NCBI GenBank assembly: GCA_026075535.2
Contig: AP026543.1
Coordinates: forward strand, 1,178,001 to 1,242,000
Direction: 5' to 3'
DNA length: 64,000 nucleotides
Source of the DNA: Tricholoma matsutake
Lineage: Eukaryota; Basidiomycota; Agaricomycetes; Agaricales; Tricholomataceae
The notes under the pieces were generated by a model. The model was not told the origin of the DNA, did not search any database, and worked only from the letters and a program-made list of their open reading frames with translations. The position numbers and the translations under genes are program-made. Below are positions 2,881-40,723 of the stretch, one piece after another. Every line of letters starts with the position of its first letter. The first letter of the stretch is position 1.

Positions 2881-5249
2881 TTGCAAGTCCAAGGGCAGTC
2901 ACAAAATGTTTCACCTTTGCACTAGGAAGAGCCTTTGTGAGAACATCTGCTGTCATCTCATGGGTAGGACAGTAGATGAGTTTGATGTGGCCAGCCTCGA
3001 TGATGTACCAAATGAAGTGGTACTGAATGTCAATATGTTTTGTTCGGGCATGGCAGTAGCCATCTTTTGTGAGTGCAATAGCAGATTGGCTGTCGCTGAA
3101 TAGTGTTGTAGGCTCTTCGAGAGGTCCAAAAACTTTTGGAAATAAGGCAGTGCAGCCACATCGCTTCTTTTGCAGCATGAGTTGTTGCAACATATTTGGC
3201 CTCCATTGTGGACAGCATGACGAGCTCCTGTTTCTTTGAAGACCAAGACATGGCTCCTCCATCAATCATGAAGACATACCCTGAAATCACCCGCCTGTGC
3301 TCCTGCGAAGCCCCATCTGCATCCGCATATCCAACCAATCCCCACTTATCACCTCCATACACCAACTCCAACCTCTTTGTCCCCTGCAGGTAACAAAAAA
3401 TCCACTTCACGGCTTCCCAGTGCACCCATCCTGGATTCTGCAAGAATTGAGATACAGTTGACACAGCAAATGTGATGTCAGGTCGAGTTCCCATAGTGGC
3501 ATACATGAGGGATCCAACGGCTTCATGGTATGGGATGTTCTGCATCTGCATGATGTCATCAAGCTTTGTCAGGCTCTGTGATATGGTGAGTTGTGTGTTT
3601 GAGTCCATGGGGGTCAATGAGGGTTTCAGATCATTGAAATTGTATCGTGTCAGGATCAATTCAATGTAGGCATGTTGGGAGAGAGTGACTGTGTGTTCCG
3701 CAAGGTTGTGATTGATCTTGATCCTGAGGAGCTAGTTCGCAGGTCTGAGATCAGTAAGTCTGTACTTCTCATTGATCTTGACTTTAACCCTTGCATTCAG
3801 CTTCACAGAACCACCTGTCATCAAGCAATCGTCAACATGAATTGCCAGGATCACCAACTTGCCATTCTCCTCTTTGTAAAACAACCCATGATCTGCCTCT
3901 GCCTGCCAAAATCCCAATTTGGTCAGCACTTTATACAGTGTATCATACCAATTCTTCGCACCCTGCCATAAACTGTAAATGGTCTTGATCAACCTGCAGA
4001 CCCACGTTGCTCATGGCTTCTTGGGGTCATCATGATTGGGCAGTTGCTCGAGAAAGATCACTTCATCTCTGAGCAAGGAATTCAAGTATGCACTGTCAAA
4101 GTCGAATGAATCCAGTGGCCACCCATTGCGGGCTGCAATTGCAGTGATGAGACGGAAGGTTGCTAGCTTTGCCACAGGTGCATAAGTCTCGTAAAAATCC
4201 ACACCATAGATCTGAGTGAATCCCCTTGCGACTAGACATGCCTTGTACTTCTCAATCTCTCCTGCCCCATTCTTCTTGATTTGAAGAACCCACTTGCTGT
4301 CAACCACATCTGCCCCACTCAGCCTTTCAATCAGCTCCCAGGTACCATTTGCCTCAAGGTTTGCAAGTTCCGCTTTGATGGCTTCTTGCCATTTTGGCCA
4401 ATTGGGATGGTTCTTTGCTTCCTTGAATGATGGCATGATCCCCTCAGATGCCTCTGTCATGCTCGCCATCGCAAACTCTTCAACGCTCACCATCTCCCAC
4501 TTGTCCACCACATCTGTGGTCTCCTGCACCCCCTTGGGTAACAAGGAGTCACTCGGTCTCACACTCACCACCCCTTTGCCCCCTTGGAGCCCTCATATGT
4601 AACTTGAAGGTTTTCATACATGCTTCTCTCGGGCATTGGGCTCAGCTATGATTTCTAGAGTGTCTGCGTTGTCACCAGGGTGATTATGTGGCATGTTCAG
4701 TGCTTCTGCATCAGTAATTTCTTCAACAGTAGCTTTGGGGTACAAACATGGAGAGGACTGCTCGTTGTCCTCCAGGATATCCCACTCCCCCTCGAGCGGT
4801 GCTCCTTCCATGAGTTCTTCCTCCTCAAAATTGAACTTCACACTTCTCTCAACTGTTATAGATCACTTCCCCTCCCAGTATACCCAATGCACATTACTTT
4901 CCTCATCAAATCCCATCCACCACCCTATCTTCAATCTCCCATCAAGTTTGGATCTGCTGGTGTCATGTACACGGATACAGCATCCCCATGGGTGTAAATT
5001 TGACAGATCAGGCTTCCTGCCTGTCATGATCTTGTAAGGGGTAGTGTTGTCAAGCACTCAAGTCCACATTTGGTTCTTTAAGTAGACCACATGGTGGGCA
5101 GCTTCTCCCCACAGAAATTTTGGGAGCCCACTGTTGTGGAGCATCGCTCACATTTTGACAAGTAGGGTGCGATTGAGTCATTCGGAGATGCCATTGTACT
5201 CAGGGGTGTCATGCACGGTGAGTTGACAAATAGTTCCTGCCTTTGTGAG
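2873..5249 (-). pseudogene. Copia-1 integrase C-part, reverse transcriptase and RNase H (broken)
   Basis: Reading leftwards, 4,863-5,249 holds the end of the integrase core (motif EYNGISE, then LPKFLWGEAAHHVVYL). RT follows at 3,732-4,571, with KWVLQIKKNGAGEIEKYKA, RGFTQIYGVDFYETYAPVA and the catalytic box HVDDCLMTG. RNase H is at 2,873-3,659 (SLMYATMGTRPDITFAV, YADADGASQEHRR, then TKHIDIQYHF). All parts from 5,249 to about 3,150 share one frame. That frame is interrupted by TGA at 5,178, 5,148, 5,058 and 4,011, each where arginine CGA fits the family, and by a TAG near 3,735. A frameshift near 3,150 separates the last RNase H part. The enzyme would have copied and integrated element cDNA; this copy cannot. 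Confidence 0.88.
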
Positions 5250-7059: not shown

Positions 7060-8634
7060 TCACAAATCCTGATCCTTTGGCACATACACCTTTCCTTGGA
7101 ATAACACCAACCCTTGTTCCTCAACCCATTCATCTCCTCTAGTATTACCCTTCTTCTTTTCCTTCATAGCTTTCACAGCTTCCACTACCTCATCATCCAT
7201 ATCTGAACATTGTCTAATTTTAGACAACATTTCCGCTTTGGAACCATCTATTGATAGATGCCCTTGATGCATAGCACAAATGCAAAAGTATTTGAGTTTG
7301 AGTAAGATAACATTTTTATTGTCCTCCTCCACCCCCCTTTTATGATCAATATGTCTGGATAATGCATCTGCCTTCCTCATTAAGCTTCCCGCTTTGTGGA
7401 CCAAGTGAAAATTGAAATGCAATAGGAATAGCGCCCAATGCACTTGCCTGCAGTTAAGCTTTTTAGCTGACATGAAGTATTGCAGATTTTGATGATCTGT
7501 CCAGATCTCAATCTGATGTGTGCATCCTTCCAAATAATGTCTCCATGCCTCCAATGCTTGTATTATCCCCAACATCTCTTTGTCATGCACATCATAGTTT
7601 CTCTCCACATCATTCAACCCTCAGGACAAATATGCACAGGGATGCCATTTGTCATCTTCACACAACATTGATAATACCGCTCCAGTAGCAAAGTCGGATG
7701 CATCTGATCCCATAAGGGACATGTGAAATCTACTGGGGCTAATATTGGTCCCTCCACAAACTTTCTCTTCAACTCCTCAAACACTGTCTGCTGCTGTTCT
7801 CCCCACCTCCACACTACTCCCTTTTGTGTAAGGTTATGTAAGGGTGCGGCAATTTTGGAAAAATTATGCACAAAGTGACGATAATAATTTGCAAGTCCCA
7901 AGAAAGCTTGCACCTCCTTGATGTGGGTAGGCACAGGCCAATCCATGATCACCTGTACCTTGATCAGATCCATTTTGATCCTGTCAGGGCTGATCAATAA
8001 TCCTAGGAACTCAATCTCGCTTGCCCCAAACACACACTTCTCTGGTTTCAAAAATAGATTGTTCTCTGCCAACCTCCACAACACCTCCTGCACTATCGCC
8101 TCATGATTTTCTTCATCCTCCCTGAATATCAGAATGTCATCAATAAATATTATTACCATGCCCTTGTCAATTACATCCTTGAAAATGTCGTTCATCATAT
8201 TTTGGAAAGTCAGGGGACTATTAGTCATTCCAAAAAACATGACAAGTGGCTCGAATGATCCTCGACGTGTGGCAAATGCAGCCTTCCACTCATCTCCTTT
8301 CTTCATTCATACATTGTTGTATCCCCATCGTAAATCCAATTTTGTAAAGACTTTGGCTTTTCCCACCTTGTCAATTATTTCTGAAATTAATGGCAAGGGG
8401 TACACGTTCTTCACTGTCCACTGTCTTCAATCCCATAGTCAAGGTGATTTCGGGTTCTATCTGTGCAGAGCGAATAAAGAATTTTGGGGTTTTCAGAAAT
8501 GGCACATGGGAATTTTCTTTGTCACATGATTCGCAACAGTTGTACTCATCAATTTCCTTTTTGGGTTTGCTCTGGGTTTCCTCGGATACTAATACATTGT
8601 AATGATTCTGGGTCACCAATGGGGAAACCTTCAC
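7060..8634 (-). pseudogene. Gypsy-1 reverse transcriptase and RNase H
   Basis: RT retains [13 protein letters not shown], then a TGA at 8,307-8,309 in place of CGA, then FATRRGSFEPLVMFFGMTNS, the catalytic box FIDDILIF and the connection region GLANYYRHFVHNFSKIAAPL. A shift near 7,615 leads into RNase H (NYDVHDKEMLGIIQALEAWR, IEIWTDHQNLQYF, RKADALSRH). Between gag and this point there is no protease and no RT N-terminal half, only unmatched coding-like sequence (8,371-8,634). This indicates a deletion. Confidence 0.85.
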
Positions 8635-19356: not shown

Positions 19357-20363
19357 TGATAGGTCCACTATGGCAGCAGAGCTCTGAAATCAAGATATCA
19401 CACTTGGACACCTCCTTCCCAAAGTTCTACAATTTTGTGAATGCTTACGAACACCTACAAATGCACAAAACAACAAAATGACACTTCAAAACATTTCGAA
19501 AGACTTCAAACCATTTTGAACAACTTTGGCCACCATATTCCTATTGTACCGAACCTTGAACACATGCTCCCACCATTACACACACTAACACATTGCGTTC
19601 CCACCACCACAAACACGAAGAAACACAATGGCTAGCAACTTAGCACACATTGAGGCGCTATTTGACATATTCATGATTTATTGGAACCACAAGACAAGGA
19701 GATTTGATATATCATGTATATGGCATGTTTCTTTCTTATCATTTTCTCATTTACTTCGTGATTTCGACACCTTGTTCACTGCCTCATGTTTACCACATGT
19801 TTTGCCTCATGGCCTTTTACCTTATTAGTACTATATCTCTAAAACATATATAGTTTGGTGTATTTACTGTCAATAAGGCCAGAAAATCATCTTCTCACAT
19901 CACCTATCATCTGACTTAAGGGTAAAACTCTTGAGTTTTAGCTCAGTCTTTGCCCGAACTCACTTAAAGTATTCTGCAAACTACATCATTTTGCCACATC
20001 GACTCTCAAAACTCTCGTCACATCACCTATCTGTCGTGTCATCGTCTCTTACCTCACTTTCAACTATTGTCACCATCTCCTGAATTTGTGAAACCATTTT
20101 GGAGATTCTCAAACTTCTCCACATTGCTGTTAAACTCTCTCATATCATTTCAGAATGCTTCATAGTGTTTCGCATTACTTTGGACAGCTTCACAGAACTT
20201 CGCGCAGTCTAATATGGCTTTGCAACATTGTACAGTACATTTACCGCCCTTTGGATAACACAGTGATATTTAGTACCACCTCACAACCTTTCTCTGACTT
20301 GTGTTATATCTCCCAAGACCTGTTTAGTTGGTTTTGGTTGAGTTTCTGGGTTGAGCATCATCA
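19357..20363 (+). repeat. Gypsy-2 5' LTR
   Basis: A 1,007-bp LTR starting TGATAGGTCC and ending CATCATCA. Its partner at 25,054-26,060 is inverted relative to it, which is abnormal for LTRs and is explained by the inversion described in the findings. The sequence before it is CTGG (19,353-19,356); the partner LTR is followed, in sense, by the same four bases. It contains a TATA-like run near 19,845. Confidence 0.88.
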
Positions 20364-23875: not shown

Positions 23876-23887
23876 GGGCCCATAACC
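23876..23887 (-). other. Copia-A primer binding site (half-tRNA(iMet) type)
   Basis: GGGCCCATAACC abuts the TGTTGG end of the LTR, identical to the Copia-1 site. Confidence 0.72.
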
Positions 23888-24152
23888 TGTTGGAGCAGAC
23901 TATATATGCTGCACAGGAGAAGAGACAACACATTCCTTACAACCTACCTGGGGTTTAGTTAGACTTACAGCTAGGGTTAGCAGAGGTAAGAACTCTGTAT
24001 TCCTACTACGGTACAGGTTCTCCTTATATACATAATAATAAGGATGTCACATGACTCGGGAATGTGTTTACCACATGTATGCACAGTAACATGTGTATGC
24101 TGCATGTATTGCCTCATGTATGCAGCATGTATCTCAGGGTTTAATTTCAACA
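23888..24152 (-). repeat. Copia-A 5' LTR
   Basis: A 265-bp LTR (sense TGTTGAAATTAAACCC to CTCCAACA). It differs from the 3' LTR at 40,445-40,718 mainly by absence of a 9-bp GCTTACTGC copy and a few substitutions. It is also the source family of the solo LTRs at 33,618-33,922 and 35,451-35,755. Confidence 0.9.
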
Positions 24153-25053: not shown

Positions 25054-26060
25054 TGATGATGCTCAACCCGGAAACTCAACCAAAACCAACTAAACAGGTC
25101 TTAGGAGATATAACATGAGTCAGAGAAAGGTTGCGAGGTGGTACTGAATATCACCATGTTATCCAAAGGCCAGTAAATGTACTGTACGACATTGCGAAGC
25201 TGTATTAGACTGTGCGAAGTTCTGCAAAGCCATCCAAAGTAACACAAAACACTATGAAGCATTCTGAAACAATACAAGAGAGTTTAACAGTGATGTGGAG
25301 AAGTTCAAGAATCTCCGAAATGATTTCATGAATTTGGGAGATGGTGACAATAGTTGAAAGCAAGGTAAGAGACAATGACATGACAGATAGGCGATGTGAC
25401 AAGAGTTTCGAGAGTCGATGTGGCAAAACGATGTAGTTTGCAGAATACTTTAAGTGAGTTCAGGCAAAGACTGAGCTAAAACTCAAGAGTTTTACCCTTA
25501 AGTCAGATGATAGGTGATGTGAGAAGATGATTTTCTGGCCTTATTGACAGTAAATACACCAAACTATATATGTTTTAGAGATATAGTACTAATAAGGTAA
25601 AAGGCCATGAGGCAAAACATGTGGTAAACATGAGGCAGTGAACAAGGTGTCGAAATCACGAAGTAAATGAGAAAATGATAAGAAAGAAACATGCCATATA
25701 CATGATATATCAAATCTCCTTGTCTTGTGGTTCCAATAAATCATGAATATGTCAAATAGCGCCTCAATGTGTGCTAAGTTGCTAGCCGTTGTGTTTCTTC
25801 GTGTTTGTGGTGGTGGGAACGCAATGTGTTAGTGTGTGTAATGGTGGGAGCATGTGTTCAAGGTTCGGTACAATAGGAATATGGTGGCCAAAGTTGTTCA
25901 AAATGGTTTGAAGTCTTTCGAAATGTTTTGAAGTGTTGTTTCATTGTTTCGTGCATTTGTAGGCATTTGTAAGCATTCATGAAATCATAGAACTTTGGGA
26001 AGGAGGTGTCTGAGTGTGATATCTTAATTTCAGAGCTCTGCTGCCATAGTGGACCTATCA
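25054..26060 (-). repeat. Gypsy-2 3' LTR (inverted relative to its partner)
   Basis: A 1,007-bp reverse complement of 19,357-20,363, the same length with scattered substitutions. The right edge GGACCTATCA is followed by TCCTCCCCCTTAC, the polypurine tract of a minus-strand element. Outside the left edge the sense strand reads CTGGT, matching the CTGG before the 5' LTR. Confidence 0.88.
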
Positions 26061-31491: not shown

Positions 31492-32285
31492 TTCATGGCT
31501 CTAGGAAAGGTTGGGATAGTAGATGATCTTGTCGAGTTGGGATCATAGATAGTAATTGTCTGAGATTCGTCGCTCCAGTTTTTGATGGTGCTTTTGGTGA
31601 CTATGTTGAAGGGTCGACCAAGCAGGATGTCATAGGCAGGGTTTCAGATTATATGAATCTGCATATAGATGGTGATTGTGCCAACTTTGCAAGGAACATT
31701 TCATGCTAGTCCTAGACTTTCGTCAATGCCACTGTTAGCCAATTGAAGTGGAATGTGGATGGAAGGATCATATGCAAGACCTAGTTCATGGCAGACTTCT
31801 TTGGACATAGCGATAATCAAAGAACCTGGGTCAACTACACCTTTGACAGGATTTTTACCATTGACATTCATCATAACTGATCTGATCGAGTGAGATTCCT
31901 TCGCAGCGACAAAGGGTTTTGGAATGTCGCCAATTCAAAGAGAGCTGATATAAGTTTCGCATGGGTTGTTGATCATAAGTACCTCTTCATTGACTAGGTG
32001 CCCCGCATTGTTTCCATCCTGGTTCAGAATACAACATGGTGTTAGCTGTTCCTTCCATTTCATATGAACTTCGGGTGATAACAAAAGAAGTTCTTCCATA
32101 GTAAGAGTGATGATCGGTATTTTCATCGAATGCGAAAATATGTCCTGAGCGATGGTGTCATTCTGAATGGGGGCTACAGTGTGGTACGAAGGACCATCTC
32201 ATTCTTTACCTTTACTAGTAGAGGCAAAGTTTTGTTCATGAGGGGGTAAGTAAGTGTTCTCCGAAGCTGCGGCATAAGGATGAAT
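31492..32285 (-). pseudogene. Gypsy-2 protease region
   Basis: The minus strand holds VKGVVDPGSLIIAMSKEVCH, a retropepsin-like active-site segment (D-P-G in place of the usual D-T/S-G), about 31,790-31,850, and NPAYDILLGRPFNIV around 31,600-31,640. Upstream is ITLTMEELLLLSPEVHMKWK. The frame runs straight into gag once the 4.8-kb palindrome is removed. Confidence 0.72.
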
Positions 32286-33617
32286 CACCTAACCTTCCCA
32301 CAGTATGTCACATATTAGTTGACATGATCCTATCACATCACGGCTACTGATCTGTAGTAAATCTGCTTATCTCCCTCACCCATCAATAATATTGTTGACT
32401 TCAACCTTGTAAGGTACCCCACCTAGCCCACCCAATGTAGGCCGCCCTTTGATATCATGTAAGCAATAGATAACCATGACAGACTGATAACAGACCAAAT
32501 CATAGATCAAACTCGGCATAACGAGATCAATGTGATGGGCAACTCGGCTACTTCTGATGTTGCCGTGCCACGTCGTGCTCATCATCCCCCATGATGAGCT
32601 CACTATTCCACTCATTCTGCACCCTTTCCCTTCGCTTTTTTTGGTAGATAATACTTATATATGTGCATAGAGTGTTATTAAACAATCAATTTCACTTTTA
32701 CACCCATTTTGGGTCTATAACAAACATCTTCTCTTGATAAAGAGAGGAGTAGGGGTCTCTTTTTCCATTGAGGGGCTCTACTACATGTGCATGGGTATAT
32801 AATTATATTTAGAGCTATGTACACAAGTGTGAATTGTGCTGTATGAGGTAGGAAGGGAGGGAAGGGGGAGAAGTGAGAGAGTGACCAGAGAGTGTAACCT
32901 GTACTGAGCATGTACATGCTCCACAGTCACCAGGGTGTATGTAGATGAATGGAGGAATGTACATAGAAGTTGGGAATGAAGTTGGGAGAGCTGGGAGTGA
33001 GGAGTTGTGTGTCAATGCAGCTGTATGGGGAGGGGGAGAGGTTATCACTTACCTACACTCCTGGGCCTTCCACTTCTAATATTGGCATTGAAAAAGAATA
33101 GGATAATCATAGTGAATGATGTGATATGCCCCCTAAAGACTCTAGAGTGGTCAGTATAGACAGAAAAGACAATGAGGACTGAGGAGGAGGAATGCTTACT
33201 CTGAGAGATCTGTGGAGCGAAAATGTTCGCTTTCTTCGATTCCTAGGTCTGATATAGAAGTATAATTAAGGTTAGTAGAGGTTATGGCAGGGGGATAAGG
33301 TTCTGGCTCACTAGGGCATGGGTTCCCCATCAACATAAGTGAACTTCACTCACCATGGAGAACACACCTTACCTGGCATCTGGATATCCTTCCAACCATT
33401 TAGTATAGTCCATTCCCTGATAAAAATAGCCTAGATACAATCCTGAAAGTCAAAATGTCATCCTCCAATGTAGGGTTTTCACCTACTCACATATTCTCCT
33501 TGTCACTCTATGCCAGCTCATATAGCCCATTAGTGAGAGTGTAGACAGGTATACCAAGGCATTATAAGCAGTATTAACACCTCAGGACAGTCCATGAGTC
33601 TGTAAAGGAGAGGTGAA

Positions 33618-33922
33618 TGTTGAAATTAATCCCTGATGCATGCTGTATACATGAGGCAATACATGCAGCATACACATGTATACATGAGGCAATACATGCA
33701 GCATACACATGTTACTGCGCTTACTGCGCATACATGCGGTAAACACATTCCCGAGTCATGTGACATCCTTAATATTATGTATATAAGGAGAACCTGTACC
33801 GTAGTAAAAATACAGTGTTCTTACCTCTGCTAACCCTAGCTGTAAGTCTAACTAAACCCCAGGTAGGTTGTAAGGAACGTGTTGTCTCTTCCCCTGTGCA
33901 GCGTATATAGTCTGCTCCAACA
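33618..33922 (+). repeat. Solo LTR of the Copia-A family, left palindrome arm
   Basis: TGTTGAAATTAATCCC to CTCCAACA, 305 bp, flanked by the perfect 5-bp duplication GTGAA (33,613-33,617 and 33,923-33,927). Compared with the Copia-A LTRs it has an extra tandem copy of about 35 bp beginning TACATGAGGCAATACATGCA. Confidence 0.9.
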
Positions 33923-34671
33923 GTGAAGAGTCAATGTAAGGAGGTAGGTTATAGTCACTCACCCAAGGTCCATAATACTGCAATTGCTTGGTGTAGTTGC
34001 ATATATTAGGATGTAATATCACAGTAAATGAGGTTCCCTCATGTTAGAGAGCATCCAGATAGTAGTTGAGGATGTAGAACATACAGAGAGAGGTTGAACC
34101 AGGAGTTCCCAAAAAGGCAATAATTCGAGGCTCACGAGCATAGCTCAAGAATGACACGGCGCGCTTATAATCAGAGAGCAGGAGTGGACAGAGACAAGTT
34201 GATTCTATGGGATGCAAAACTCTGGAAGGAATCTGTGGAGGAACAAGTAAGATACAAGCAAGGCAATAGTTTCAGAGCTGGTTGATCGAGACACATCCGA
34301 TCATGGACCTTGCCTGATCACTCCATCGGACCATTCATCAGTACTCTTTCAAGCACCCTGCCTCAATTTCTCCACAGATTCCTTTCAATCCTTTTGCATT
34401 CATTGGAATCAACCTGCCTCTATCTACTTCTGCTATTTGATTATGAGCACACCGTGTTGTTCTTGAGCTATTCCTGAATTATTACCTTTTTTGGGACACT
34501 TGGTTCAACATGCTCTCTGGTACATGCTACTGCCTCTGTTGCCATCTGGACTATCTCCAGCTCAAAAGAACTTCACTTTCCATTATATTATGCACTAATC
34601 TCTATAGGACAACAAGCAAATACAGTATTATGGACCTTGGGTGAGTGACTGTAACCTACCTCCTTACATTG

Positions 34672-34701
34672 CCATGAGTCTGTAAAGGAGAGGTGAAGAG
34701 T
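34672..34701. other. Palindrome loop carrying the empty LTR insertion site
   Basis: The 30-nt loop includes AGGAGAGGTGAAGAGT with a single GTGAA. The same sequence in each arm (around 33,590 and 35,760) is split at GTGAA by the solo LTR. The loop therefore preserves the pre-insertion state. Confidence 0.85.
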
Positions 34702-35450
34702 CAATGTAAGGAGGTAGGTTACAGTCACTCACCCAAGGTCCATAATACTGTATTTGCTTGTTGTCCTATAGAGATTAGTGCATAATATAATGGAAAGTGA
34801 AGTTCTTTTGAGCTGGAGATAGTCCAGATGGCAACAGAGGCAGTAGCATGTACCAGAGAGCATGTTGAACCAAGTGTCCCAAAAAAGGTAATAATTCAGG
34901 AATAGCTCAAGAACAACACGGTGTGCTCATAATCAAATAGCAGAAGTAGATAGAGGCAGGTTGATTCCAATGAATGCAAAAGGATTGAAAGGAATCTGTG
35001 GAGAAATTGAGGCAGGGTGCTTGAAAGAGTACTGATGAATGGTCCGATGGAGTGATCAGGCAAGGTCCATGATCGGATGTGTCTCGATCAACCAGCTCTG
35101 AAACTATTGCCTTGCTTGTATCTTACTTGTTCCTCCACAGATTCCTTCCAGAGTTTTGCATCCCATAGAATCAACTTGTCTCTGTCCACTCCTGCTCTCT
35201 GATTATAAGCGCGCCGTGTCATTCTTGAGCTATGCTCGTGAGCCTCGAATTATTGCCTTTTTGGGAACTCCTGGTTCAACCTCTCTCTGTATGTTCTACA
35301 TCCTCAACTACTATCTGGATGCTCTCTAACATGAGGGAACCTCATTTACTGTGATATTACATCCTAATATATGCAACTACACCAAGCAATTGCAGTATTA
35401 TGGACCTTGGGTGAGTGACTATAACCTACCTCCTTACATTGACTCTTCAC

Positions 35451-35755
35451 TGTTGGAGCAGACTATATACGCTGCACAGGGGAAGAGACAACACGTTCCT
35501 TACAACCTACCTGGGGTTTAGTTAGACTTACAGCTAGGGTTAGCAGAGGTAAGAACACTGTATTCCTACTACGGTACAGGTTCTCCTTATATACATAATA
35601 TTAAGGATGTCACATGACTCGGGAATGTGTTTACCGCATGTATGCGCAGTAAGCGCAGTAACATGCGTATGCTGCATGTATTGCCTCATGTATACATGTG
35701 TATGCTGCATGTATTGCCTCATGTATACAGCATGCATCAGGGATTAATTTCAACA
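35451..35755 (-). repeat. Solo LTR of the Copia-A family, right palindrome arm
   Basis: Exact mirror position of 33,618-33,922, flanked by TTCAC on both sides (the complement of GTGAA). It differs visibly at two adjacent transitions (GTAGTAAAAATAC against GTAGTAGGAATAC). Confidence 0.9.
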
Positions 35756-37094
35756 TTCACCTCTCCTTTACAGACTCATGGACTGTCCTGAGGTGTTAAT
35801 ACTGCTTATAATGCCTTGGTATACCTGTCTACACTCTCACTAATGGGCTATATGAGCTGGCATAGAGTGACAAGGAGAATATGTGAGTAGGTGAAAACCC
35901 TACATTGGAGGATGACATTTTGACTTTCAGGATTGTATCTAGGCTATTTTTATCAGGGAATGGACTATACTAAATGGTTGGAAGGATATCCAGATGCCAG
36001 GTAAGGTGTGTTCTCCATGGTGAGTGAAGTTCACTTATGTTGATGGGGAACCCATGCCCTAGTGAGCCAGAACCTTATCCCCCTGCCATAACCTCTACTA
36101 ACCTTAATTATACTTCTATATCAGACCTAGGAATCGAAGAAAGCGAACATTTTCGCTCCACAGATCTCTCAGAGTAAGCATTCCTCCTCCTCAGTCCTCA
36201 TTGTCTTTTCTGTCTATACTGACCACTCTAGAGTCTTTAGGGGGCATATCACATCATTCACTATGATTATCCTATTCTTTTTCAATGCCAATATTAGAAG
36301 TGGAAGGCCCAGGAGTGTAGGTAAGTGATAACCTCTCCCCCTCCCCATACAGCTGCATTGACACACAACTCCTCACTCCCAGCTCTCCCAACTTCATTCC
36401 CAACTTCTATGTACATTCCTCCATTCATCTACATACACCCTGGTGACTGTGGAGCATGTACATGCTCAGTACAGGTTACACTCTCTGGTCACTCTCTCAC
36501 TTCTCCCCCTTCCCTCCCTTCCTACCTCATACAGCACAATTCACACTTGTGTACATAGCTCTAAATATAATTATATACCCATGCACATGTAGTAGAGCCC
36601 CTCAATGGAAAAAGAGACCCCTACTCCTCTCTTTATCAAGAGAAGATGTTTGTTATAGACCCAAAATGGGTGTAAAAGTGAAATTGATTGTTTAATAACA
36701 CTCTATGCACATATATAAGTATTATCTACCAAAAAAAGCGAAGGGAAAGGGTGCAGAATGAGTGGAATAGTGAGCTCATCATGGGGGATGATGAGCACGA
36801 CGTGGCACGGCAACATCAGAAGTAGCCGAGTTGCCCATCACATTGATCTCGTTATGCCGAGTTTGATCTATGATTTGGTCTGTTATCAGTCTGTCATGGT
36901 TATCTATTGCTTACATGATATCAAAGGGCGGCCTACATTGGGTGGGCTAAGTGGGATACCTTACAAGGTTGAAGTCAACGATATTATTGACGGGTGAGGG
37001 AGATAAGCAGATTTACTACAGATCAGTAGCCATGATGTGATAGGATCGTGTCAACTAATATGTGACATACTGTGGGAAGGTTAGGTGGATGAAT

Positions 37095-38634
37095 TGGGAG
37101 TTGCGAACTCACGAAACTCACAAGTGGTTGCAAATTCAAAGTCATCTGTGAAGTCATTGATGGTGCTATATTGGATGAAGCTGGATTGGTCATGGTAGAG
37201 GATATAGATGGTGGTGCGGTGGTTGGAGTGGGAAGGGCTACTGGTTCTGCTGATGGATCCATGGACAAAATCGATGGCTGAACCACAGGAGCTGCGATTG
37301 GACTGTGTTCATGTTGAGTAAAATTTTGGCCACTTCGTAATGCATATAATTCTTGTTCTAAGCGAGTGATATGAATATCAGCTGCAGTATTCATGTCCAT
37401 GATCTGGTAGATTCCCCTAGGAGCGGGAGCTGGAGTGGGGGAAGGGGCAATACCATACATGAGGGCAGGGACGATATTTATGTCTGGGTTTTGACAAATC
37501 CATTTGTCGATGCGATCTTTGATGCAACATCCAGGGATGTTTTGTGGTGTGAACTGTCCATTCAGAAGCACAACTTTCCCTTTGGCATTCTTCTTACACT
37601 TTCCATTGTTAATATACATTTGGCAGACCAAACAATCACTAATGAAGTGTCCCGAAAGACCACAGAAAATACAAACTAAATTTTCGAGTTGGTCCTGGTG
37701 AAACCCTTGATTAACACAGGGGGAATTGTTGTTGTTATTGTTGAGTTGAGCTCCTGTTAAGGCCGTGATGAGAGTGGTCGCAAATTTCTTGAGAATCATT
37801 GATAAATCCTCTGTTTTGATTTGTGGCAATGATGTAGAGGTAGTAGGGATAGAGGTTGAAGCCGAGGATGAGGATGGGACTTGTGAAGTTGAGGCCGAGG
37901 GAGTTTGTGATGATGTAGTACCTGCTAAAACAAATTTTGCAGCAGCATGAATGTCATCGAGAGGATAGGGGTTGTCTGGGTAGTGGTCAGGGAATTTGAG
38001 TTCTAGACAGCACAATTTGCATCCATAATCCTGGTTGAAAGCCACAAACGAAGGCTCTGCTTTGTTTGGCTGCCGAAAGTCAATTTTTCATGGTGAGGAA
38101 CTTAGTGATATTGTAGAAGGACCTGTAATATGATCCTAATTCATTCGCATCGTACATACCAATGCAAAGTTGTTTGCCAATCAGTTTATTCATATCGGCA
38201 ATCGACCACTTGCAGTTGTCTTCAGATCCAGGGTACAACTTGTGGATAGCTGTATGAAATTCATTGAACAAAACCCCTGCGTCATATTCTGGGATTGACT
38301 CCCAAAGTTCGGAGGTATCAATGTCGATGTATTGACAGGCATGCTTCTTCATATCTTTGGAATCGATAATTCCACATGTTGGAAACAGCATTTCGAGTTC
38401 ATTAAAGTATCTCCAAAGTTCTCGAGGCTGGGTAGGATCAAACTTCAGAGCTGTGGAGTGACCACAAGCTGGCATAGTAGCTTGTGTAACAGGAATGGCA
38501 GCAATTGCCCCATCAATCAGGCAGGCAGAGGAACATCCCAAACCGTCCTGGCAATACCTATGGAGAGAAGCGACTCCCCTCTGACATAGAAAGAGACATT
38601 GCACATGATCGATATTGAAAGAGATCTGTGGGTC
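37095..38634 (-). pseudogene. Gypsy-2 gag, main part
   Basis: From the inversion breakpoint it reads LDPQISFNID, then ALKFDPTQPRELWRYFNELE, SKDMKKHACQYIDIDTSELW and ELGSYYRSFYNITKFLTMKN. A TGA replaces CGA near 38,083, followed by a frameshift near 38,030. The second frame has FPDHYPDNPYPLDDIH and a knuckle, CIFCGLSGHFISDC, near 37,670. It is a typical agaricomycete gypsy gag. Its first codons lie at 20,495-20,702 on the other side of the inversion. Confidence 0.85.
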
Positions 38635-40444: not shown

Positions 40445-40718
40445 TGTTGAAATTAAACCCTGAGATACATGCTGCATACATGAGGCAATACATGCAGCAT
40501 ACACATGTTACTGTGCTTACTGCGCATACATGTGGTAAACACATTCCCGAGTCATGTGACATCCCTATTATTATGTATATAAGGAGAACCTGTACCATAG
40601 TAGAAATACAGAGTTCTTACCTCTGCTAACCCTAGCTGTAAGTCTAACTAAACCCCAGGTAGGTTGTAAGGAATGTGTTGTCTCTTCCCCTGTGCAGTGT
40701 ATATAGTCTGCTCCAACA
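40445..40718 (+). repeat. Copia-A 3' LTR
   Basis: A 274-bp LTR with inner TGTTGAAATTAAACCC and outer CTCCAACA, then the duplication GCTCC. TATATA-like ATGTATATAAGGAG at about 40,574 could be a promoter TATA box. Confidence 0.9.
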
Positions 40719-40723
40719 GCTCC

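Follow-up and report, generated by a model that had tools for sequence, protein, structure and literature searches.

A near-perfect 4.8-kb palindrome in Tricholoma matsutake as a probable non-autonomous foldback transposon of the KDZ family

Fungal transposons of the Kyakuja-Dileera-Zisupton (KDZ) family and the Drosophila foldback element Galileo are the described systems closest to the element studied here, a 4,802-bp near-perfect palindrome (hereafter the unit) that lies within a Gypsy element of the matsutake mushroom Tricholoma matsutake. The window we analysed is a stretch of 64,000 nucleotides (assembly GCA_026075535.2, contig AP026543.1, positions 1,178,001 to 1,242,000 of the forward strand), and positions given without a contig refer to it. 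In the excerpts of the cited reports that we draw on throughout, KDZ1 of Cryptococcus neoformans measures ~11 kb with 241-bp terminal inverted repeats (TIRs) and 8-bp target-site duplications (TSDs), and KDZ2 and KDZ3 measure ~9.2 and 10 kb with 139- and 169-bp TIRs and 4-8 bp TSDs (PMC12810828). In Kyakuja, 7-bp TSDs and CA..TG ends without TIRs are described for two families, and one Dileera family has 8-bp TSDs (PMC12730594). Galileo, a member of the P superfamily, carries foldback arms of variable length and 7- or 8-bp duplications; transposable elements inserted in one of its arms are later found in both, and internal sequence has been recruited into the arms (PMC4168063). Tetris and Tm1 (Mutator/Foldback) are also named as foldback transposons (PMC4079207, PMC3169594), and in yeast foldback priming at double-strand breaks has been proposed as a route to inverted duplications (PMC10622511).

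The matsutake unit shares features with each of these. Like the fungal KDZ transposons excerpted above, its group has a KDZ domain in putative autonomous relatives, duplications of 7-8 bp, terminal inverted repeats and CA..TG ends, and the sizes, TIRs and duplications published for fungal KDZ elements are compatible with those found here; unlike them, the unit has no transposase and has arms of kilobase length. Variable foldback arms, 7-8 bp duplications and a foreign insertion common to both arms are shared with Galileo as excerpted, a likeness in structure, whereas the host is a fungus and the relatives hold a KDZ domain rather than a P transposase. The unit thus works like Galileo, but by its ends it goes with KDZ-bearing elements. 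Tetris and Tm1 belong to other hosts, and Tm1 is named as Mutator-type, not KDZ. The break-repair route proposed below resembles that of the yeast inverted duplications, but the yeast case is a chromosome rearrangement while the unit lies inside a transposon and shows no priming microhomology by eye at its centre. No foldback or palindromic KDZ derivative was found in the literature searched, which was largely without subscription papers and is represented by excerpts. The unit is probably a non-autonomous member of the KDZ family with a foldback structure, and it probably owes its symmetry to copying of the left half after a break.

Anatomy and insertion site of the palindromic unit

Compared with its own reverse complement, the unit (32286-37087) matches at 4,758 of 4,802 positions. 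The two arms (32286-34671 and 34702-37087) measure 2,386 bp each and are identical at 2,377 positions (99.6%) without a gap; each of the nine differences is a transition, and five of the nine fall at a CpG in one of the two arms. Inverted arms make up 4,772 of the 4,802 bp, and the 30 bp at the centre are asymmetric and non-palindromic. A palindrome this long is far beyond chance, by judgement and not by a formal statistic. The original prediction, made from the letters of the window, had described a near-perfect palindrome of the foldback type with 2,386-bp arms, few transitions and no indel, and had attributed the similarity of the arms to recent origin or arm-to-arm conversion. The assembly sequence bears out this description (nine transitions, zero gaps), the foldback label is apt, and we accept that the likeness of the arms is recent.

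From the outside inwards each arm consists of segment A, which ends in the short segment S, then a 305-bp insert resembling a solo long terminal repeat (LTR), with GTGAA on either side, and then segment I, while the centre is a further S without the insert (Table 1). In other copies of the family S continues directly into CAATGT..., with no insert, so that the insert is an addition. It resembles the window at 40445-40719 and 23887-24152. An LTR inside the arms had been predicted, and an LTR-like insert with look-alikes in the window is indeed present in each arm. The 50-base junction across the centre has a single genomic occurrence, the unit's own (≤3 mismatches). No open reading frame (ORF) of at least 100 amino acids lies wholly inside the unit, and on this evidence the unit itself encodes no KDZ transposase; the ORF at 37023-38045 overlaps it and extends outside. 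An Rfam search of 32200-37200 returned no family at gathering score.

The unit begins with CACCTAACC and finishes with GGTTAGGTG, and the 7-bp sequence GATGAAT flanks it on both sides in direct orientation. A pattern built from the joined flanks was found uninterrupted at 15 other genomic places (≤3 mismatches); 14 of the 15 read GGATGAATTGGG with a single GATGAAT, and one differs inside the 7 bp. Together, the duplication and the uninterrupted counterparts indicate that the unit inserted with a 7-bp duplication. The predicted insertion with a duplication of 7-8 bp is thereby confirmed by comparison with related empty sites. Removal of the unit had also been said to restore the Gypsy-2 gag-pol frame. 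The unit with one duplication does measure 4,809 bp, a multiple of 3. In the frame of ORF 37023-38045, however, translation of the left flank runs into a stop codon after 28 codons, so frame restoration is weakly supported and not relied on here. Elsewhere in the window, 19357-20363 and 25054-26060 form an inverted 1-kb repeat that is 93.7% alike.

Relatives with the same ends and the KDZ domain

The genome searched comprises 161,040,721 bases in 13 contigs. The outer 1.3 kb of an arm has at least 51 matches in it, two of which are the unit itself (40 of 560 candidates scored), so the earlier claim that the arms match no other type of element holds inside the window but not genome-wide. The 18-base end CACCTAACCTTCCCACAG occurs at 107 places at ≤1 mismatch, compared with none for the reversed control. 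Taking 100 listed places of the 107 and inward-facing pairs within 45 kb, we obtained 11 pairs, the window unit included. Exact duplications of 7-8 bp flank six of the ten other pairs (8 bp for C3 and C9:9293221; 7 bp for C10, C6, C4 and C9:6983610) and two more, C5 and C7, have duplications that are imperfect by one mismatch; no duplication is present at C1, and the flanks of C2:6657352 are mirrored. As exact duplications abut the CACCTAACC...GGTTAGGTG pairs, these represent a true pair of element ends, and the search with ends and flanking duplications that had been suggested at the outset gave a positive answer. The end of L042 is 88-89% like the window ends over 103 bp. Segment A of the window is 97.3% like that of L009 and ~82% like those of L045 and L062 (gaps excluded). 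A reading of CACCTAACC as a mere internal site, with a ~690-bp repeat, T, just outside many copies, was rejected: the outside sequence is other than T in eight of ten end stretches, and the exact duplications adjoin six of the ten pairs.

A search of the genome for the KDZ family gave at least 165 matches (150 of 831 candidates scored). Four of the pairs measure 8-15 kb, and among the matches listed a KDZ domain falls inside three of them, namely those on C1, C3 and C10 (Table 1); hmmscan on stop-free pieces from these three places identified KDZ in six of six. The first 17-18 bases are common to the unit and to the C1, C3 and C10 pairs, in inverted arrangement, which means that the unit shares its ends with KDZ-bearing elements; over 108 bp the C1 and C3 ends are 80-81% like the family end L042. 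The target duplications, 7 bp in the unit and 7-8 bp where exact in the other pairs, likewise fit those of KDZ elements. With the KDZ piece from C3 as query, 50 matches were detected in the genome. Five of the best 8 of these 50 have an inward-facing end within 15 kb, whereas random sets of 8 places average 0.07 and, in 3,000 draws, reach 2 at most. One of the five is the C3 query itself, leaving four of seven as independent, and the cut at 8 was chosen after seeing the list. For all 50 matches, five lie near an end, compared with a random mean of 0.46 and a maximum of 4 in 1,500 draws. Pfam searches of 20 end-adjacent pieces (from L042, L043, L044 and L046) yielded a PIF1-like helicase piece and an integrase zinc-finger piece, as well as gag and chromo-like pieces that were weak and below cut-offs.

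Several observations weigh against the attribution to KDZ. Among the 50 matches to the C3 KDZ piece only five have a listed end nearby, so most of these relatives lie away from one. The pair at C9:9293221, which is the fourth of 8-15 kb, and those of C6, C7, C4, C9:6983610 and C2 have no KDZ among the matches listed, the KDZ match of the C5 pair is absent among the listed matches of the C3 piece and may be nested, and the C1 pair is without a target duplication. Stop codons break up the KDZ pieces that were read, which may reflect decay or introns. Furthermore, no transposase lies inside the unit, so its mobilisation would have to take place in trans.

The unit had been introduced as an element without recognised transposase and as the best candidate in the window for an undescribed mobile element, with a search for a longer copy with a transposase as the proposed check. 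The unit indeed encodes none, but some longer relatives with the same ends hold the KDZ domain, and the C1, C3 and C10 pairs are candidates for the longer copies that the search was meant to find. With its many same-end relatives, some of them with a KDZ domain, the unit is unlikely to be a mobile element of an undescribed kind. It is at most a passenger and not an autonomous KDZ element.

Table 1 Features of the unit and KDZ matches in pairs of family ends. Positions without a contig are those of the window.
Feature	Position	Strand	Basis or remark
Left target-site duplication GATGAAT	32279..32285		Flank comparison, joined-flank pattern
Left-arm segment A, 1,332 bp, start CACCTAACCTTCCCACAG	32286..33617	+	Self-comparison, genome search
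Left-arm segment S (recurs insert-free at the centre)	33592..33617	+	Comparison of copies
305-bp solo-LTR-like insert TGTTG...CAACA, left arm	33618..33922	+	GTGAA at 33613-33617 and 33923-33927; other copies without insert here
Segment I, 740 bp; forms an imperfect inverted repeat on its own (~75%)	33932..34671	+	Self-comparison
Asymmetric 30-bp centre, S without insert	34672..34701		Comparison of S copies
Segment I, mirror copy	34702..35441	-	Self-comparison
LTR-like insert, mirror copy	35451..35755	-	Self-comparison
Right-arm segment A, mirror copy, finishing GGTTAGGTG	35756..37087	-	Self-comparison
Right target-site duplication GATGAAT	37088..37094		Flank comparison, joined-flank pattern
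KDZ match in C1 pair	C1:6006977-6015786 (8.8 kb)		2.3 kb from one end
KDZ match in C3 pair	C3:4040059-4054916 (14.9 kb)		2.3 kb from one end
KDZ match in C10 pair	C10:8874496-8885118 (10.6 kb)		2.7 kb from one end

Further repeats accompany the family. Repeat T has ends CACTTCAGGCAACC (for example L016:508-1194) and at least 44 matches (40 of 92 candidates scored); it lies outside A in many copies and stands at both ends of some (L014, L015 and L018). A short T-ended derivative, C10:824979-826643 (in L028), has the 8-bp duplication CAAGAATA, from which T-ended composites seem to be mobile too. At one site, between A positions 70 and 75, segment A is split by a stretch of ~1.6-2 kb in L016, L017, L018, L020 and L021, and the extra stretch in L020 holds a 1-kb inverted repeat that is 88% alike. 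Near a CACCTAACC end, L044:1123-4500 (reverse orientation) is densely packed with repeats several hundred bases long that are inverted relative to one another. At C9:6983610-7022646 the family ends lie 39 kb apart and still have a matching 7-bp duplication, with nested insertions in the 20 kb read; one of these is an LTR element bounded by the repeats L039:2487-2888 and 8024-8425. Giant Polinton-like elements, which inverted ends 37-43 kb apart had suggested, were rejected, as the C9 copy consists of family arms and nested insertions in the 20 of 39 kb read; the rejection rests on this reading and not on a search for Polinton genes.

Origin of the symmetry

L045 (C5) has the order A-S-I-S'-A' with one I, and its mirrored arms are 76.0% alike over 562 positions. 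L040 (C9) has a larger centre, and over 939 positions its mirrored arms agree at 74.4%. An I at C2:6553393-6554145 has mirrored A pieces, at 6552345 and 6555193, equally far away on its two sides, as read from match positions only. Since the window A is ~82% like that of L045 and the arms of L045 and L040 are 74-76% alike, the divergence between the two arms within each of these copies exceeds that of one arm between copies. Because the arms of L045 and L040 have diverged, the perfect symmetry of the unit looks like a later change. The unit also differs in its order, with two complete I segments around a central S (I-S-I') where L045 has only one I, and the insert is present in both of its arms and absent from the central S.

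In the model we propose, longer relatives would supply a KDZ transposase that recognises the CACCTAACC... ends and generates a 7-8 bp duplication as it inserts the unit. The order A-S-I-S'-A', with old and diverged arms, is seen in some non-coding relatives (L045 and, with a larger centre, L040). An LTR-like insert may have entered the left S in the lineage leading to the window copy, and the right half may then have broken just beyond S'. Repair of this break would have duplicated the left half, from A through S and the insert to I, in inverted orientation, either through invasion of the left arm by the broken right end, which would then have been rejoined without homology, or through fusion of two broken sister copies; the repair may have involved the element in situ, a sister copy or an excised molecule. 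The product would possess two left ends, near-identical arms and the leftover insert-free S' as its 30-bp centre, and it would either have jumped into the Gypsy element as a palindrome or have been converted there afterwards. A break past S', copying of the left half and non-homologous joining would together account for the two copies of I, for an insert on both sides and for a centre that lacks it.

This sequence of events has its own difficulties. The order A-S-I-S'-A' is not general, as L062 has only 147 bp of a right end, and among 20 loci compared A pieces of at least 400 bp occur in both orientations only in L013. By eye, no microhomology is seen at the centre junction in comparison with L020. 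Moreover, one base is common to all three S copies in the unit but found in none of the 19 S copies listed elsewhere; explaining it would take an additional exchange or a different origin for the central S.

Arm-to-arm gene conversion alone would have made the old arms of an ordinary foldback copy alike in place. Long inverted repeats generally convert readily, and in L062 the ends agree at 98.0% over 147 bp whereas its inner inverted repeat reaches ~75%, so that local homogenisation seems to occur. However, conversion of an A-S-I-S'-A' copy would keep the centre inside I, whereas the unit shows I-S-I' around an insert-free S, which makes conversion alone rather improbable; a one-sided conversion finishing in end-joining would fit, but that is part of the copying route favoured here. 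The mover could also be another transposase, of the P, hAT or an undescribed superfamily, with the KDZ domains near the ends coincidental or captured. Galileo, of the P superfamily, likewise combines 7-8 bp duplications with long foldback arms in the excerpts consulted (PMC4168063), rust-fungus hAT elements with 7-bp duplications exist (PMC12730594), and a listed KDZ match of the subgroup is found in only three of the ten pairs. Against this stand KDZ domains at similar distances from an end in four places, which is above chance. Among the matches listed for the hAT dimerisation domain, none falls inside the ten pairs (150 of 449 candidates scored). On searches that covered the KDZ and hAT domains, we regard a different mover as unlikely.

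Formation of the palindrome where it now lies, around a CACCTAACC site and with no transposition, is suggested by the mirrored flanks of C2:6657352-6658456, where symmetry passes beyond an element and no duplication is seen. The flanks of the unit, by contrast, are direct 7-bp repeats and not mirrored, and the site has 15 uninterrupted counterparts, so we hold it to be very unlikely that no transposition was involved. An assembly or read artefact, in which a foldback chimera doubled one arm, is barely credible. Foldback artefacts are described for long reads (PMC12870357, excerpted), but the arms of the unit differ at nine sites, its right end is followed by the target duplication and then by the same Gypsy sequence that runs uninterrupted at 15 other places, and the ~10-kb reads given for the matsutake assembly in the excerpted report (PMC10211490) are long enough to span 4.8 kb. 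Overall, the unit is a real, unusual but understandable element, and a KDZ-mobilised foldback transposon rebuilt from its left half remains the reading we prefer.

Recurrence in the family and its meaning

Two other members bear on whether such palindromes recur. The 1,105-bp member at C2:6657352-6658456 has 450-bp arms that are 96.4% alike and a loop of ~205 bp. The best other match to its whole arm is 76%, with partial matches of ~160-190 bp reaching 86% (40 of 375 candidates scored). Its flanks (L047, C2:6657340-6658470) are mirror images, GTGTGACCACTT/AAGTGGTCACAC, without a duplication, and the symmetry runs past the element ends. At C4:12824269 (L041) the arms are 92.2% alike over 296 bp and ~82-84% like the window arm; no right end was found at this locus. 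The centres of the C2 member and L041 differ from that of the window unit, which suggests more than one such event in the family. A wider generalisation is conceivable, though we hold it only tentatively and rather doubt it: KDZ transposition in matsutake may repeatedly make near-perfect palindromes, through one-arm copying or fusion of sister ends, and the resulting two-left-ended palindromes may stay mobile.

The origin and renewal of long arms in foldback elements is a long-standing question, studied for example in Galileo of Drosophila. The fungal elements tied to KDZ seem to behave like Galileo despite belonging to a different superfamily, and in the matsutake unit an internal marker, the LTR-like insert present in both arms and not in the centre, records the direction of copying. 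Large palindromes are a known source of rearrangement. If the wider generalisation is true, the KDZ family would keep giving rise to new large palindromes with varied centres.

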